IMG/VR virus record: IMGVR_UViG_3300043395_000627
Coordinates: 1-34,531 of that record
Direction: 5' to 3' (one strand)
Source of the DNA: a virus
Length of the DNA stretch: 34,531 bases
Within the stretch, counting starts at the first letter, position 1; the number at the start of each line of letters is the position of its first letter. The notes under the pieces are model-generated. The model did not search any database. It saw nothing but the letters and a program-made list of their open reading frames with translations, and had not been told where the DNA came from. Shown here piece after piece: positions 7,908 to 19,042 of the stretch. Position numbers and translations under genes: made by a program.

Positions 7908-9653
7908 GTGAACGATATTTTAGCGGCTTTACGGGGCGATTTCAAGCTGTTTCTGCAAGCACTGTGGCAACAGCTTGATCTACCTTCTCCTACACGAGCA
8001 CAATACGCCATTGCTGACTACCTACAACACGGACCTAAACGACTACAGATCCAAGCTTTCCGAGGAGTCGGTAAGAGCTGGATTACTGGAGCGTTTGTGT
8101 TGTGGACACTCTTTAATGACCCAGAAAAGAAGATCATGATCATCTCCGCTTCTAAAGAGCGTGCAGATAACATGTCCATCTTCCTTCAGAAGCTGATCAT
8201 TGAAACCCCGTGGCTCAGTCATCTAAGACCGAAGTCGGATGATGCCCGGTGGTCTCGCATCTCCTTTGATGTTAACTGCTCTCCACACCAAGCACCATCA
8301 GTCAAGTCAGTCGGCATTACGGGTCAGCTAACGGGTTCTCGTGCAGACCTGATGATTCTGGATGACATCGAAGTGCCTGGTAACTCGATGACTGAGATGA
8401 TGCGAGAGAAGCTCCTTCAGCTTTGTACAGAAGCGGAGTCCATCCTGACACCCAAGAAGGACAGCCGCATTATGTACCTTGGCACTCCACAGACTACCTT
8501 CACCATCTACCGAAAGCTAGCGGAACGTAACTATCGTCCATTTGTCTGGCCTGCTCGCTACCCACGCAAGGACAAGCTCAGTCAATACGAGAACCTGCTA
8601 GCCCCACAGATCGTAGAAGACATTGAGATGGGTGCTGAGGAGTGGACACCCACTGATCCAGACCGTTTCCAATCCGATGACCTATTGGAACGGGAAGCAG
8701 CCATGGGTCGCAGCAACTTCATGTTGCAGTTCATGCTTGATACCACGTTGAGCGATGCAGAGAAATTCCCACTTAAGTTCTCAGACCTCATCATTACTTC
8801 CGTTAATCCGACTCAAGCGCCGGATGCTGTTGTGTGGTGCAGTGACCCTCGTAATGTGCTCAAGGATCTGCCTACGGTTGGCTTACCGGGTGATTACTTC
8901 TACTCCCCGATGCAACTCCAAGGAGAGTGGACTGACTACACCGAGACGATCTGCTCCGTAGACCCTTCAGGTCGTGGTAGTGACGAAACCGCAGCAACCT
9001 ATATCTCTCAAAAGAATGGCTTTCTCTACGTTCACGAAGTACGAGCGTATCGCGACGGTTATAGCGACAATACACTTCTTGACATCCTTCGTGGGTGTAA
9101 GCGGTACAATGTTTCTAAACTCCTTATCGAAACAAACTTCGGTGACGGTATCGTCGCAGAACTGTTCAAAAAACACCTTCAACAAACCAAACAACCCATA
9201 GACGTAGAAGAAGTCAGAGCCAATGTCCGTAAGGAAGACCGCATCATTGATGCTCTTGAACCCGTCATGAACCAGCACCGGCTGATCGTTGACAAGTCGG
9301 TCGTGGAATGGGATTACAACTCCAATAAAGACGCAGCACCAGAAGAACGTCTGCTGTACATGCTCTTCTACCAAATGTCTCGGATGTGCCGGGAGAAGGG
9401 TGCCGTCAAACACGACGACAGATTGGACTCCCTAGCTCAGGGTGTCAAATACTTCACTGATGCCATGTCCATCAGCGCCTACGAGGCTGTTAAAGCCCGT
9501 AGACAAGAAGATTGGCAGGATCTCCTGGAAACCTTCCTAGACGACCCTCAGAGCGCCACTGATCACCTCGTGATGGGGTTCTCTCTTGACCAACGACGGA
9601 CAGCTAGAGGAGGCGGTAAACGCGGGTCCATTCCCACGTGGGTCCCAAGATAA
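7908..9653 (+). CDS. terL: Large terminase subunit (T7 gp19-like, DNA maturase B)
   Basis: 581-aa packaging ATPase and nuclease that pumps DNA through the portal; T7 gp19 is 586 aa. Walker A is FRGVGKSW (residues ~51-58) and Walker B with catalytic acid is LMILDDIE (~148-155). The motor-coupling motif YLGTPQT follows. The nuclease domain begins near residue 345 (ICSVDPSGRGSDETA, first metal-binding Asp) and continues through LLIETNFGDG and KHDDRLDSLAQG. Start is GTG at 7908 because no upstream in-frame start follows the terminator. It is separated from terS by three genes. Confidence 0.95.
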   Translation: MNDILAALRGDFKLFLQALWQQLDLPSPTRAQYAIADYLQHGPKRLQIQAFRGVGKSWITGAFVLWTLFNDPEKKIMIISASKERADNMSIFLQKLIIETPWLSHLRPKSDDARWSRISFDVNCSPHQAPSVKSVGITGQLTGSRADLMILDDIEVPGNSMTEMMREKLLQLCTEAESILTPKKDSRIMYLGTPQTTFTIYRKLAERNYRPFVWPARYPRKDKLSQYENLLAPQIVEDIEMGAEEWTPTDPDRFQSDDLLEREAAMGRSNFMLQFMLDTTLSDAEKFPLKFSDLIITSVNPTQAPDAVVWCSDPRNVLKDLPTVGLPGDYFYSPMQLQGEWTDYTETICSVDPSGRGSDETAATYISQKNGFLYVHEVRAYRDGYSDNTLLDILRGCKRYNVSKLLIETNFGDGIVAELFKKHLQQTKQPIDVEEVRANVRKEDRIIDALEPVMNQHRLIVDKSVVEWDYNSNKDAAPEERLLYMLFYQMSRMCREKGAVKHDDRLDSLAQGVKYFTDAMSISAYEAVKARRQEDWQDLLETFLDDPQSATDHLVMGFSLDQRRTARGGGKRGSIPTWVPR

Positions 9654-10003
9654 GACACAAGCTGTAGCAAGCGTTCTGGCTGAGGACGGATTAGAAGCGG
9701 GGAAGGGGGAGTCGTGTCTCACGAGACGTGATCCCCAACTCCCCCTCTATCAATGTCCCTGGGAAAGGACATTCTGTGAGTACTGAACTCAAACTGACAC
9801 AAATGACACAATTAACTGATGTCCTCAGCGAACGAAGTGAGCGGGTGAATGGACATCTCTAAATAACTACTACTACTACTTTCTTTTAGAGGAGACTGAA
9901 TCTAGATCATCTCAATGGCCTCTTGATTGGCCATCTGAATGATACAGGATTCATTTCTCTTATTAAAAATCCCAGTAACTACAATCTATTAACAACCCAA
10001 CTA
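9654..10003 (+). other. Intergenic region between terL and thyX with inverted repeats
   Basis: No convincing gene is present. It contains an 8-bp inverted repeat (GGGGGAGT 9705-9712 with ACTCCCCC 9738-9745) enclosing a GTCTC/GAGAC pair. A second hairpin is AATGTCC/GGACATT (9752-9773). A direct repeat of TGACACAA lies near 9798-9815, followed by a run of five CTA/ACT triplets near 9866-9880 and a third inverted repeat ATGGCC/GGCCAT (9915-9934). A 28-codon ORF from GTG 9776 is possible but unsupported. This is a candidate for packaging-end or regulatory DNA. Confidence 0.6.
9705..9745 (+). terminator. Hairpin downstream of terL, possible late terminator
   Basis: An 8-bp GC-rich stem (GGGGGAGT/ACTCCCCC) spans a 25-nt loop that itself can fold through GTCTC/GAGAC. 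It lies about 50 nt after the terL stop. The downstream tract is only CTCTAT, so termination is not certain. The site could alternatively be a protein-binding or DNA-end signal. Confidence 0.45.
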
Positions 10004-10672
10004 ATGCACTCAGTCCAACTTATCCACATCACACCAGAAGCAGAGAACCTCATTAGCTACATGGCTAGGGTCTCTAACCCATCTAATCAATCAAACACGA
10101 AGGGCTTGTCACTTCGTGACTACACTGAGACCAGTGCTAAACTAATTAAATACCTTATTGATCATCAACATTGGTCTCCCTTTGAGATGGTCAATATGTG
10201 TGTAGAGATTAACACTACTAGATCCATAGCAGCTCAGATCCTTCGTCATAGAAGCTTCTCATTTCAAGAGTTCAGTCAACGGTATGCAGATGTAACGACT
10301 ATTGGTACACCAGTCATTCCATCACTACGTAGACAAGACCTGAAGAACAGGCAGAACAGTACTGATGATCTTGATACAGCAAAGAAACAACAGTTCCTTC
10401 GTCGTATTCAACAGCACTTTGCAGAAGCTGAGGATCTCTACAGAGAAATGGTGTCAGCAGGTGTAGCAAAAGAGTGTGCTAGGGATGTGTTGCCGATGTC
10501 TGCTCCGTCTAGGTTGTACATGAATGGAACCATTAGGTCTTGGTTGCATTATTGTGACTTGAGAACTGCTAATGGAACACAGAGAGAACATGCAATTATT
10601 GCGGCACAAGTGCAAGATTTGCTGTATGAGCATCTGCCCAATGTGTGTAAGGCGATGTGGAACATGGAATAA
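10004..10672 (+). CDS. thyX: Flavin-dependent thymidylate synthase
   Basis: 222-aa ThyX, converting dUMP to dTMP with methylene-tetrahydrofolate, FAD and NADPH, which supplies thymidine for phage replication. The signature RHRSFSFQEFSQRY (RHRx7S, residues ~81-94) is intact. Upstream ISYMARVSNPSNQSNTKG and HQHWSPFEM are typical of the FAD/dUMP site. The C-terminal RSWLHYCDLRT and AQREHAI-like segment match the family. ATG 10004 (MHSVQLIHITPEAEN) is preferred over the in-frame ATG 9923 because family members begin just before this segment. It lies next to terminase, away from the RNR cluster, although it serves the same dNTP supply. Confidence 0.93.
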   Translation: MHSVQLIHITPEAENLISYMARVSNPSNQSNTKGLSLRDYTETSAKLIKYLIDHQHWSPFEMVNMCVEINTTRSIAAQILRHRSFSFQEFSQRYADVTTIGTPVIPSLRRQDLKNRQNSTDDLDTAKKQQFLRRIQQHFAEAEDLYREMVSAGVAKECARDVLPMSAPSRLYMNGTIRSWLHYCDLRTANGTQREHAIIAAQVQDLLYEHLPNVCKAMWNME

Positions 10673-11264: not shown

Positions 11265-11274
11265 TCACCTTCGC

Positions 11275-11313
11275 TAACACTTCATTAGAGGTATCTAGAA
11301 GGGCCTAGAAGGC
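11275..11313 (+). repeat. Copy 2 of the 39-nt intergenic repeat
   Basis: TAACACTTCATTAGAGG then TATCTAGAAGGGCCTAGAAGGC, the partner of 7839-7877. Unlike copy 1 it lacks the long pairing arm and T tract, so the conservation is not explained by terminator function alone. Confidence 0.75.
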
Positions 11314-11396
11314 GTGTGTAAGTGTTATTGAGTGTCTTTGTATGTTCAATGCGTTTCATACGTCTTCCTAGGGCTTGTAGAGGGGTCTCTTAGTTT

Positions 11397-11425
11397 TTGA
11401 CAAAAATTTCTTACGTCAATACGTA
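11397..11425 (+). promoter_or_regulatory. Possible early promoter (-35 TTGACA)
   Basis: A perfect TTGACA (11397-11402) is followed after 17 nt by TACGTA, a poor -10. It is oriented towards the early genes. Host-type recognition is inferred; the weak -10 keeps confidence low. Confidence 0.3.
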
Positions 11426-11881
11426 GGAGTAGGGGCGCGGTTCTACCCCCATGGCCCCTCTTTGGCCTGGAAATGGCCGCGCTAGTTACGTTATCTAGTC
11501 GATCCAACTAGGGTTTCGGCCCTGGCGGCCACTATATATAGACGCTTTGCCTTATTGCGAACAGTTCTCAACAAGTCTAGATCTGGTGTGATCTGTGCGC
11601 GATAGTGTGCCAATCGCCGAACCGCCACACAACCTGATGCTGAGTGCCACGATCCTGCTGTAGGTTGCTTGCAACGGGATGAGACCGGAACGCCACCGGA
11701 CAGACTCAAACCGTCAGGGGGCATCGATGCCACCGCTTCAAACCTCAGAACCTAGACAATCAAATAATCGCGAGCCAGCCAACTAGGGCAATGCCGCGTT
11801 GCAACCTATCGGGCGGGATCCTAGGTGCAACGGTTAGGGCAACCTGAACGGGCCTCGCTTTGCTGCCACTCACAACCTAAT

Positions 11882-11931
11882 GGCCAGCACACTAGTAGCG
11901 CGATGCTATGGGATCGAATCCCTGCTGTGCC
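11882..11931 (+). other. tRNA-like three-way junction
   Basis: GGCCAGCA pairs with TGCTG(T)GCC as a closing stem with one bulged T. Inside are TAGC-GCGAT-GCTA and GGGA-TCGAA-TCCC, the second resembling a T-arm directly abutting the 3' acceptor strand. There is no D-arm and no proper seven-base T-loop stem, so it is not called a functional tRNA. Confidence 0.4.
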
Positions 11932-11933
11932 TA

Positions 11934-11952
11934 TTCTCTCATCGTGAGAGAA
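11934..11952 (+). promoter_or_regulatory. Perfect 8-bp hairpin in the early leader, possible RNA-processing site
   Basis: TTCTCTCA-TCG-TGAGAGAA has no following T tract, so it is not a typical terminator. It stands 37 nt before the first early gene. A similar TTCTCT...AGAGA palindrome lies upstream of the capsid gene (32728-32745). Confidence 0.55.
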
Positions 11953-11956
11953 CCCT

Positions 11957-11968
11957 TCCACTAGTCAA
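11957..11968 (+). repeat. Early-leader motif copy A (TCCACTAGTCAA)
   Basis: It lies 32 nt before the first early gene and upstream of its AAGGAGG ribosome binding site. It belongs to a family with consensus TCCACTTGTCAAAC. Confidence 0.65.
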
Positions 11969-11988
11969 CAATCACAAGGAGGCACACA

Positions 11989-16702: not shown

Positions 16703-19042
16703 ATGGTTTCACCTGCTCTCACCGAGCAACAGATCGAGCTGGAGAAGCGTGCCATTGCCTACGGGCGTGAACGTCTTCTCGATCAAACACGCAAGCTGGA
16801 GGAGCGCTCCTACGGGTCAGCAACGGTCTATGGCGCAGCCAGCATCCAGGCAGCCCTTGGAGAGGTTTCACGGGTCATCGAGGACACGCTGATCCGCATC
16901 CACAAGGGGCAGAACGGCGTTGATTTCGCCACCATCCACCAATACCTGGCTGAGATCGAACCGGAGGCAGCCGCAGCCATTGCATTGAAGCTGACCTTCG
17001 ACAAGGTGTTCAGCCCAAAGGACAAGGCCAACGAGATCGCCAACGTGATCACAGCCATTGGCCAGGCGTTGGAACAGGAGTGTCAGCTCCGCTGGTATGA
17101 GGCTCAGGATCCTGACCTGTATGACCGCATCAAGCGGCAGTACTGGCACAGCGCCTGTGGCACCCAGCAGAAGGCAACAGTGGCTCGCACGATGATGAAT
17201 CGGCATGAGCATCACTGGGACAATTGGCCAACTGCTACAAAAGCAAAGCTTGGTGGATGGCTTCTTGATTGCGTGCTGAAGGCCACTGGGTGGTTCGACA
17301 AGCACATGGTTGTCAGAGATAAGAGGCGGTACACCTTGCTTGTGCCGAGTCTTCTTTTTGCCATGCAAAAGGAGGAGCTGATGCAAGACGCTCTGATGTT
17401 TGCTCCAATGGCTTGGCCCATGTTGGTCCCACCACGAGATTGGAGTCCCATCAAGGCTGGTGGCTACCTCCTCAATGAGGTAATGCATGGCCATGAGATG
17501 GTGCGACGCGGTGAGGGCGGATTAGTACAGGGGAACACGCCACTCCTGTTTTTGAACAAGCTCCAGAAGGTTGCCTACACGCTCAACAATTTTATTGTCG
17601 ACGTGGCTGAGACCTTGATGGAGCGTCAGTACAAGGTCGGTAAATTCTTACCGATCATTGAGCTACCCCTCCCCAACAAACCGTTCGACATCGCGGAGAA
17701 CGAAGAGGCTAGGCACGAGTACAGACGGCAAGCAGCAGAGGTGTTAAACCACAACGCTGCGTCATTCAAACGGTCTTGCCGTACACGAATGACCATGGAG
17801 ACCGTCAAGCTCTTCAAGGAGAAGGACAAGTTCTTTCTCCCGTGGTCATTTGACTATCGAGGGCGTACGTATCCGATCCCAGCCTTTCTCACTCCACAAG
17901 ACACTGACTTCGGTAAGTCTTTGCTGAAGTTTGCTGAGCCGTCGTTCATGACGGATGAAGCAGAAGCGTGGCTGGCATTCCAAGTAGCGACTTGCTACGG
18001 GAATGGGTTGGACAAAGCCACGATGCAAGAGCGTCAGGATTGGGTTGTTCAAAACCAAAGCCTGATTTCCGCTGTTGCAACTGATCCACTTGGCAATTTG
18101 TCTCAATGGGAGGCTGCAGATGAGCCGTGGCAGTTCCTCGCTGCATGTGAGGAGTACAACGCTTGTGTTATTGAATGCACAAGAAGTTGGACAAATCTGC
18201 CGGTTGCTATTGACGCTACGTGCTCAGGACTGCAGATCCTGGCTGGTATGGCGAGAGATCAATCAACTGCAAAGTTGGTGAATGTCTTTCCGTCAGATAC
18301 ACCACAGGATGCATACAAAGTTGTGGCAGAAACGGCTAAGCCAAAGCTGCCAGATCACCTAGCTGTTCTTCTTGATCGGAAGGTCACAAAGAGAACAGTG
18401 ATGACAATTCCATACAACGCCACCAAGCATTCCAACAGGGCTTACATCCGTGAGGCTCTTAAAGAAAAGGGTGCTGAGTTCACACCAGAAGAACTCACTT
18501 TGATTGTTAATGCAGTCAGAGAAGCGATGTATGAGGTTGTCCCCGGTCCAATGCGTGTTATGGACTGGATCAAACAAGAAGTTGGCGCAGCGTTTAAACG
18601 CGGCGTAGATCACCTCACTTGGGAGACACCTTCAGGGTTTATCGTCAAACAAAACAGACGTAAACGTAAGGTAACGACGATCAAGTTACAGATCCTTGGT
18701 CGTTGTGAAGTGAACCTAACTACAGGACTTGAAGGACCAGATGTTGCTGGTCATAAATCCAGCACAGCTCCCAATCTTATTCACTCCTTGGATGCTTCGA
18801 TCTTGCATCAAGCATTCCTGAAGTTCAACGCACCGTTCACGGTGATCCACGATTCAGTGCTTTGTCGGGCAACTGATATGGGCATATTGAATCGCGTAGT
18901 CAGGGAAACCTACTGCGAAATCTTTTCATCCAGCAATCCACTTCTGGATTTTGCTGAAGCTATCGGAGCAGAGACTGATCCGCCAATCATTGGTGATCTC
19001 GATCTTGATTCCGTCCTTGAATCCACCTATTTTTTCTGTTAA
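16703..19042 (+). CDS. gp1: Single-subunit DNA-directed RNA polymerase (T7 gp1-like)
   Basis: 779-aa phage RNA polymerase that should transcribe middle and late genes from its own promoters; T7 RNAP is 883 aa. Motif A with catalytic Asp is AIDATCSGLQILAGM (near residue 500). Motif B is VTKRTVMTIPYNATKHSNR (near residue 560), equivalent to the T7 Arg/Lys/Tyr helix. Motif C is IHDSVLC (near residue 715) with the second Asp. SFDYRGRTYPIPAFL is the conserved palm segment preceding motif A. The shorter length is typical of cyanopodovirus enzymes. It overlaps the SSB gene by one base. Confidence 0.97.
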   Translation: MVSPALTEQQIELEKRAIAYGRERLLDQTRKLEERSYGSATVYGAASIQAALGEVSRVIEDTLIRIHKGQNGVDFATIHQYLAEIEPEAAAAIALKLTFDKVFSPKDKANEIANVITAIGQALEQECQLRWYEAQDPDLYDRIKRQYWHSACGTQQKATVARTMMNRHEHHWDNWPTATKAKLGGWLLDCVLKATGWFDKHMVVRDKRRYTLLVPSLLFAMQKEELMQDALMFAPMAWPMLVPPRDWSPIKAGGYLLNEVMHGHEMVRRGEGGLVQGNTPLLFLNKLQKVAYTLNNFIVDVAETLMERQYKVGKFLPIIELPLPNKPFDIAENEEARHEYRRQAAEVLNHNAASFKRSCRTRMTMETVKLFKEKDKFFLPWSFDYRGRTYPIPAFLTPQDTDFGKSLLKFAEPSFMTDEAEAWLAFQVATCYGNGLDKATMQERQDWVVQNQSLISAVATDPLGNLSQWEAADEPWQFLAACEEYNACVIECTRSWTNLPVAIDATCSGLQILAGMARDQSTAKLVNVFPSDTPQDAYKVVAETAKPKLPDHLAVLLDRKVTKRTVMTIPYNATKHSNRAYIREALKEKGAEFTPEELTLIVNAVREAMYEVVPGPMRVMDWIKQEVGAAFKRGVDHLTWETPSGFIVKQNRRKRKVTTIKLQILGRCEVNLTTGLEGPDVAGHKSSTAPNLIHSLDASILHQAFLKFNAPFTVIHDSVLCRATDMGILNRVVRETYCEIFSSSNPLLDFAEAIGAETDPPIIGDLDLDSVLESTYFFC

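Follow-up and report, generated by a model that had tools for sequence, protein, structure and literature searches.

A non-coding block with a predicted terminal repeat and a covarying RNA leader ahead of the early genes of a T7-like cyanophage

Genome context of the non-coding block

The window, i.e. the whole 34,531-nt stretch of the IMG/VR virus record IMGVR_UViG_3300043395_000627, was assigned by gene content to a T7-like cyanophage, with aquatic cyanobacteria as the host group. Genes for a primase/helicase and a head-tail adaptor are found in the 34.5-kb record besides those in Table 1. A block of 724 nt (11265-11988) separates the late/ThyX end from the first early gene, whose product gave no match in a PHROG search. 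The corresponding place in cultured relatives is an unannotated gap of about 380-950 bases; relatives with such a gap are S-SRP01, S-CBP3, DSL-LC07, MedDCM-OCT-S28-C3, S-B28 and KBS-P-1A.

Table 1. Coordinates of genes and elements in and around the non-coding block.
Feature	Position	Strand	Remarks
Terminase large subunit (terL)	7908-9653		94% identical to Synechococcus phage S-CBP3
ThyX	9923-10672		
Long hairpin with imperfect pairing, immediately left of the terminase-site block	11293-11396	+	z -3.7, 0/200 shuffles
Conserved pac-like block TTGACAAAAATTTCTTACGTCAAT	11397-11420	+	Predicted terminase recognition/cleavage site, left edge of repeat
Predicted direct terminal repeat, 170 bp	11421-11590	.	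Homology and synteny with known repeats
ATCTGTGCG, predicted right edge of repeat	11591-11599	+	Counterpart of T7 RNA-polymerase class II pause/termination site at concatemer junction
P0 hairpin, stem CCGG/CCGG, conserved loop AACGCCA	11684-11702	+	Compensated stem changes
Short hairpin around GGCATCGATGCC	11718-11735	+	Possible boxB counterpart (tentative)
boxA-like element GAACCTAGACAATCAAATAA	11748-11767	+	Consensus in relatives GAACCTWGACAACTnAATA
91-nt structured RNA with P1 (closing stem, GCGAG/CTCGC) and P2 (long hairpin)	11768-11858	+	Covariation; directly 3' of boxA
tRNA-like element	11882-11931	+	Acceptor stem GGCCAGCA/TGCTGTGCC (one bulge), arm GTAGC/GCTAT, T-arm GGG-ATCGAAT-CCC
Hairpin TTCTCTCATCGTGAGAGAA directly after the tRNA-like element	11934-11952	+	Conserved CTATT at junction
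First early gene, 59 aa	11989-12168	+	AAGGAGG ribosome site just upstream
Single-subunit RNA polymerase	16703-19042		

All ORFs within the block are short. In comparison with the closest relative, L089 (90% identity), substitutions in the longest of them are spread evenly over the codon positions (7/7/7 and 6/5/5) and indels shift the frame, whereas the first early gene displays the 6/0/13 pattern of coding DNA. The first-pass annotation had seen no supportable gene here, and the codon-position test and the indels uphold this and rule out a hidden gene. The block had also been described as rich in GC, which is true only to a slight degree (51.9% versus 49.3%, a value reached by 21% of windows of equal size). 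The four CAACCT copies noticed earlier are indeed present, but their meaning as repeats did not hold: 12% of shuffled sequences contain some hexamer at least four times, so the count is not above chance and a repeat array was rejected. The four copies belong to different RNA elements.

Folding of the whole block is not clearly better than that of shuffled sequences (z -1.1). Folding energy was dropped as proof of structure since neither the whole block nor the 91-nt RNA falls clearly below shuffles, and the evidence for structure is covariation. Taken together, the data support a block of two adjoining parts, a terminal repeat followed by a structured RNA leader, and with them two of the three options raised at first reading, each for its own part of the block.

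The terminal repeat and its edges

The hairpin stretch to the left of the pac-like block is conserved in close relatives, with similarity to L012-L014, L017 and L088; a weak match to sno_ZL1 (E 0.11) was taken as chance. The pac-like block itself is present in some 36 relatives with the consensus TTGRCAnAAATTTSTnAAG, followed by a C-rich run. The ends of P-SSP7 were determined experimentally, giving a repeat of 206 bp (PMC3350473), and Syn5 was deposited with a repeat of 237 bp; that of T7 is 160 bp. The P-SSP7 and Syn5 repeats both begin exactly 24 nt from the first T of TTGGCA, and from this spacing the left edge in the window is predicted at 11421. The TTGACA block was also considered as a sigma-70 early promoter, which was dropped because it lies 24 nt left of the P-SSP7 and Syn5 ends.

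At the right edge, ATCTGTT follows immediately on the repeat in T7 and Syn5, as ACCTGTT does in P-SSP7; the sequences directly after the repeat are ATCTGTTCG in Syn5, ACCTGTTGC in P-SSP7 and ATCTGTTACAG in T7. About 25 nt inward from its left end, the T7 repeat also possesses a run of CCCCC. ATCTG was found at the corresponding place in 26 of 31 relatives, the window counted in, against 10% of shuffles, and ATCTGT in most relatives; the first match of the scan in the window is ATCTGG, and ATCTGT follows at +170. For T7 RNA polymerase, ATCTGTT acts as the class II termination sequence, and it is located at the concatemer junction (PMC11617373). The Syn5 RNA polymerase gives truncated products like those of the T7 polymerase on a template with an ATCTGTT site (PMC9624206).

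The predicted repeat shows homology to the P-SSP7 and Syn5 repeats with mapped ends and lies between the terminase and last genes on one side and the first early genes on the other. Based upon the spacing to the conserved block, the right edge at ATCTGT and the homology to known ends, the stretch 11421-11590 can be taken with high probability as the terminal repeat of this T7-like cyanophage, with the edges as predicted, which agrees with the left-end region suggested by the first-pass annotation. Such a repeat is ordinary for this phage group; what is added here is a prediction of its edges to single-base precision. The terminase would cut 24 nt inside the TTGACAnAAATTT block and at ATCTGT to leave a terminal repeat of about 170 bp, and pausing of the phage RNA polymerase at ATCTGT may be coupled to this cutting, as in T7.

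The contig of the record crosses the concatemer junction once, and assembly running through the junction is the usual assembler behaviour with such repeats (PMC3350473). The ends of IMG/VR contigs do not fall at the predicted edges and are uninformative as evidence on the repeat. A sequence ACTATATATAGAC, possibly a promoter, was found inside the predicted repeat at 11531-11543, and a similar TATATA stretch is present in L088.

The covarying RNA leader

The second part of the block, from about 11684 to 11952, contains helices that covary among relatives. The partners of the P0 stem change together in L073 (GCGGG/CCCGC), L118 (GCTGG/CCAGC) and L098, and the loop AACGMCA is kept. In the 91-nt RNA, the main helix of P2 is 97% paired in ten sequences, with 11 of 14 pairs compensated. 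Its covariation of 0.743, compared with 0.186 +- 0.038 in shuffles, was reached in none of 500 shuffles and falls to 0.07-0.12 when the partners are slid. The closing stem P1, paired by hand, covaries as well (GCGAG/CTCGC, GGCTG/CAGCC, AGCTG/CAGCT, GCCGC/GCGGC and GACTG/CGGTC). A covariance model of the 91-nt RNA found 13 places, including L058 (E 5e-4), which had been left out of model building. The covariation check proposed earlier thus points to an RNA, and the opposite outcome, lacking covariation together with a conserved ORF in homologues, was not observed.

No Rfam 15 family was found above the gathering threshold in the window or in 14 relatives, and a known RNA family was rejected for the block on this result. 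A search of 31 Synechococcus genomes, run without a positive control, gave no copy of the 91-nt RNA, nor was a description of the leader found in the open-access literature; a CACTGCCGC..GCGGGWTC pattern proved too unspecific in IMG/VR and was left unused. The leader is therefore apparently an undescribed structured RNA, as far as the libraries searched show, which had been one of the options raised at first reading. In S-CBP3, an annotated CDS over the leader RNA (S-CBP3_0015, L002 8703-8933, minus strand) is probably spurious.

The tRNA-like fold and the perfect hairpin seen in the first reading are both present, with z -2.0 for the former and z -3.65 (0/200 shuffles) for the two together. 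Six leaders (L089, L073, L088, L118, L132 and L058) share the tRNA-like architecture with different complementary stems; acceptor stems of other leaders read GGTGCAAA/TTTGCACC, GGTAGGCA/TGCCTACC, GCTGTAGC/GCTACAGC, GGATAGTC/GGCTATCC and GGACAGA/TCTGTCC, and T-stems GGG/CCC, GTG/CAC and GAG/CTC. In the 3' acceptor strand of L089, an insertion and a deletion of one base each shift the bulge and keep the stem. The stem of the following hairpin also changes together in relatives carrying the element. The window copy has a bulged acceptor stem and a T-stem of only three pairs, and a second kind with a five-pair T-stem occupies the corresponding place in KBS-P-1A, S-CBP3 and others. ARAGORN called no tRNA, either in the window or in relatives that carry the element, and no cloverleaf with an anticodon arm was recognised, so that a tRNA or tmRNA was ruled out. 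The predicted fold, with its acceptor/T-arm helix, has a geometry that would suit an RNase P substrate, and from this helix cleavage by RNase P is conceivable, somewhat short of an even chance.

Two T-arm-containing tRNA-like structures, not called by ARAGORN, lie at 603-650 and about 990-1045 in the unannotated left end of P-SSP7 (L091). In L063, L066 and L192, the 91-nt RNA is followed downstream by a terminator-like hairpin with TTTCT behind it and then by a second hairpin before the early gene.

The location at the concatemer junction would also suit a block that serves only as DNA, for packaging and as an origin, with its inverted repeats acting at that level. We consider this very improbable, because the boxA, the tRNA-like features and the ribosome site share a strand and follow each other as they would in a transcript, and G-U pairs occur in the helices.

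The boxA-like element reads GAACCTAGACAATCAAATA in the window, and its 3' part strays from the consensus, with ACTGAATA changed to ATCAAATA. Of 23 leaders, 18 have a match, compared with 1% of shuffles, and the other five have no recognisable boxA. The boxA of the rRNA spacer in the host clade, GAACCTTGACAACTGCATAG, is present in 26 of 31 Synechococcus genomes with one or two copies each, and 23S rRNA sequence lies about 380-520 bases downstream in those inspected. The phage element matches it in the core GAACCTWGACAA, the 3' part of the window copy being degenerate. A short hairpin precedes the boxA rather than following it, and its resemblance to a boxB is tentative; its folding energy is not significant, and at the aligned place L132 and L118 have other hairpins (CCCATTGATGGG and GGCTTAAAGCC, respectively).

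The boxA of other bacteria is bound by NusB-S10 and helps untranslated RNA to be transcribed or RNA to mature correctly (PMC4807359). NusB is encoded in the five host-clade genomes searched, some of them incomplete single-cell genomes, and nothing above the cut-off was found for Rho in the same five. Protection from Rho would thus not be the reason for a boxA here, which would serve processivity or RNA maturation instead. The lack of Rho in these genomes would also fit a leader of the HK022 put or riboswitch type, acting directly on RNA polymerase or sensing a host signal, with the boxA resemblance being secondary, and so would the well-conserved apical loop CGGGCGGGATCC and the GGTTAGGGCA strand beside a covarying stem. 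This is improbable in our view, as no other part is shared as widely as the boxA, which also agrees with the rRNA signal of the host, and the modules behind it vary between lineages.

Relatives possess a TTGACA-N16/17-TAnnnT promoter before the boxA, ending 9 nt from it in L088, L127 and L192 and about 40-44 nt from it in L005, L033, L035 and L060. A good sigma-70 promoter was not found before the boxA in the window, only a weak site aligned with TTGACA..TATGTT of L073. This weak counterpart is the main gap in the argument for a leader read by the host RNA polymerase.

The tracts behind the boxA differ by lineage (sets B, C and D). A different and nearly invariant RNA of about 80 nt (CGTCACAAGACGGAACTAGCGGAGCGAGCGATCCCGCGA..) occurs behind the boxA in S-CBP1, DSL-LC07 and other cyanopodoviruses (alignment A5: L003, L005, L032, L033, L035, L044, L050, L060, L078, L079 and L087). 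Compensated changes occur in its closing stem and its 3' stem, and Rfam gave no match for the members scanned (L003, L033, L060, L078 and L087). The boxA-like sequence recurs as GAACCTAGACAACTGAATA before tRNA arrays in many other phage contigs, and the first tRNA of the array often has a UUU anticodon (L094, L096, L107, L119, L122, L124, L128, L136, L137, L139, L145, L161, L166 and others). From the lineage-specific tracts and the tRNA arrays it follows that the common factor behind the boxA is untranslated, structured RNA.

These exchangeable modules and the tRNA arrays also suit a separate small RNA that acts in trans and has a promoter of its own; it would carry a boxA because it is untranslated, and the early mRNA would start elsewhere. 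In some relatives the promoter is so near the boxA that the latter would form the start of the RNA, and L063, L066 and L192 carry the terminator-like hairpin and TTTCT in the slot of the tRNA-like element. The window has no terminator-like site ahead of the early gene, and early genes always follow close behind the RNA, which leaves the small RNA a less likely alternative, to be taken more seriously than the other two.

Proposed early transcription and comparison with known systems

The explanation we favour, and hold to be fairly probable, is a concatemer junction and left genome end joined to a boxA leader that is transcribed by the host and carries a tRNA-like element that RNase P may cut. 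After DNA entry, the host RNA polymerase would read the long untranslated leader directly inside the left end; that it would be read first is suggested by the position and order of the elements. The host-rRNA-type boxA in the nascent leader would recruit NusB-S10 of the Nus complex and render the polymerase processive through the structured, untranslated RNA, in which the 91-nt RNA and the tRNA-like element may fold as separate modules. A cut by host RNase P at the tRNA-like element would release the leader RNA and also leave the early mRNA with a 5' part that is defined and carries a protective hairpin.

We further propose, as a speculation that is rather less likely than the leader itself, that the cyanopodovirus leader imitates an rRNA operon by its boxA, structured RNA and tRNA-like processing site. 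It might thus capture the rRNA transcription and processing machinery of a host without Rho for the first phage transcript, and the swappable modules behind the boxA might represent a new class of phage early RNAs.

The analysis offers a rule, using sequence only, to place the physical genome ends of an abundant phage group, and, where the cyanophage early region starts, an RNA family with strong covariation that Rfam does not contain. The host-type boxA and the tRNA-like element make the passage of the first transcript through a long untranslated leader directly testable, as is the role of boxA in a bacterium seemingly without Rho.

The junctions of T7, P-SSP7 and Syn5 resemble that of the window in the site between the terL region and the early genes, the C-rich run near the start and the right edge at ATCTGT(T); P-SSP7 and Syn5 also share the 24-nt spacing from the TTGRCA block. 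The window differs from all three by a repeat predicted at 170 bp and an otherwise diverged sequence. The early leader of T7, from the repeat to gene 0.3, likewise has several hundred non-coding bases, but it is annotated with promoters only (A1-A3) and with neither a boxA nor a tRNA-like element. The boxA of cyanobacterial rRNA operons has the same GAACCTWGACAA core at the start of a structured untranslated RNA, whereas the window carries a phage leader without rRNA and a copy degenerate in its 3' part. Lambda nut and HK022 put are also RNA elements of phage early leaders, and nut has a boxA; in the window a boxA-boxB order was not found, nor, without a systematic search, an N-like protein, and it also differs in its fold and in the absence of Rho from the host-clade genomes searched. 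The tRNA-like domain of tmRNA, RNase P model substrates and the 3' structures of plant viruses share the acceptor stem, the T-arm and a T-loop-like sequence with the window element, which in contrast is about 50 nt long, has one further arm and no recognised anticodon arm, and is located inside the 5' leader of a DNA phage.
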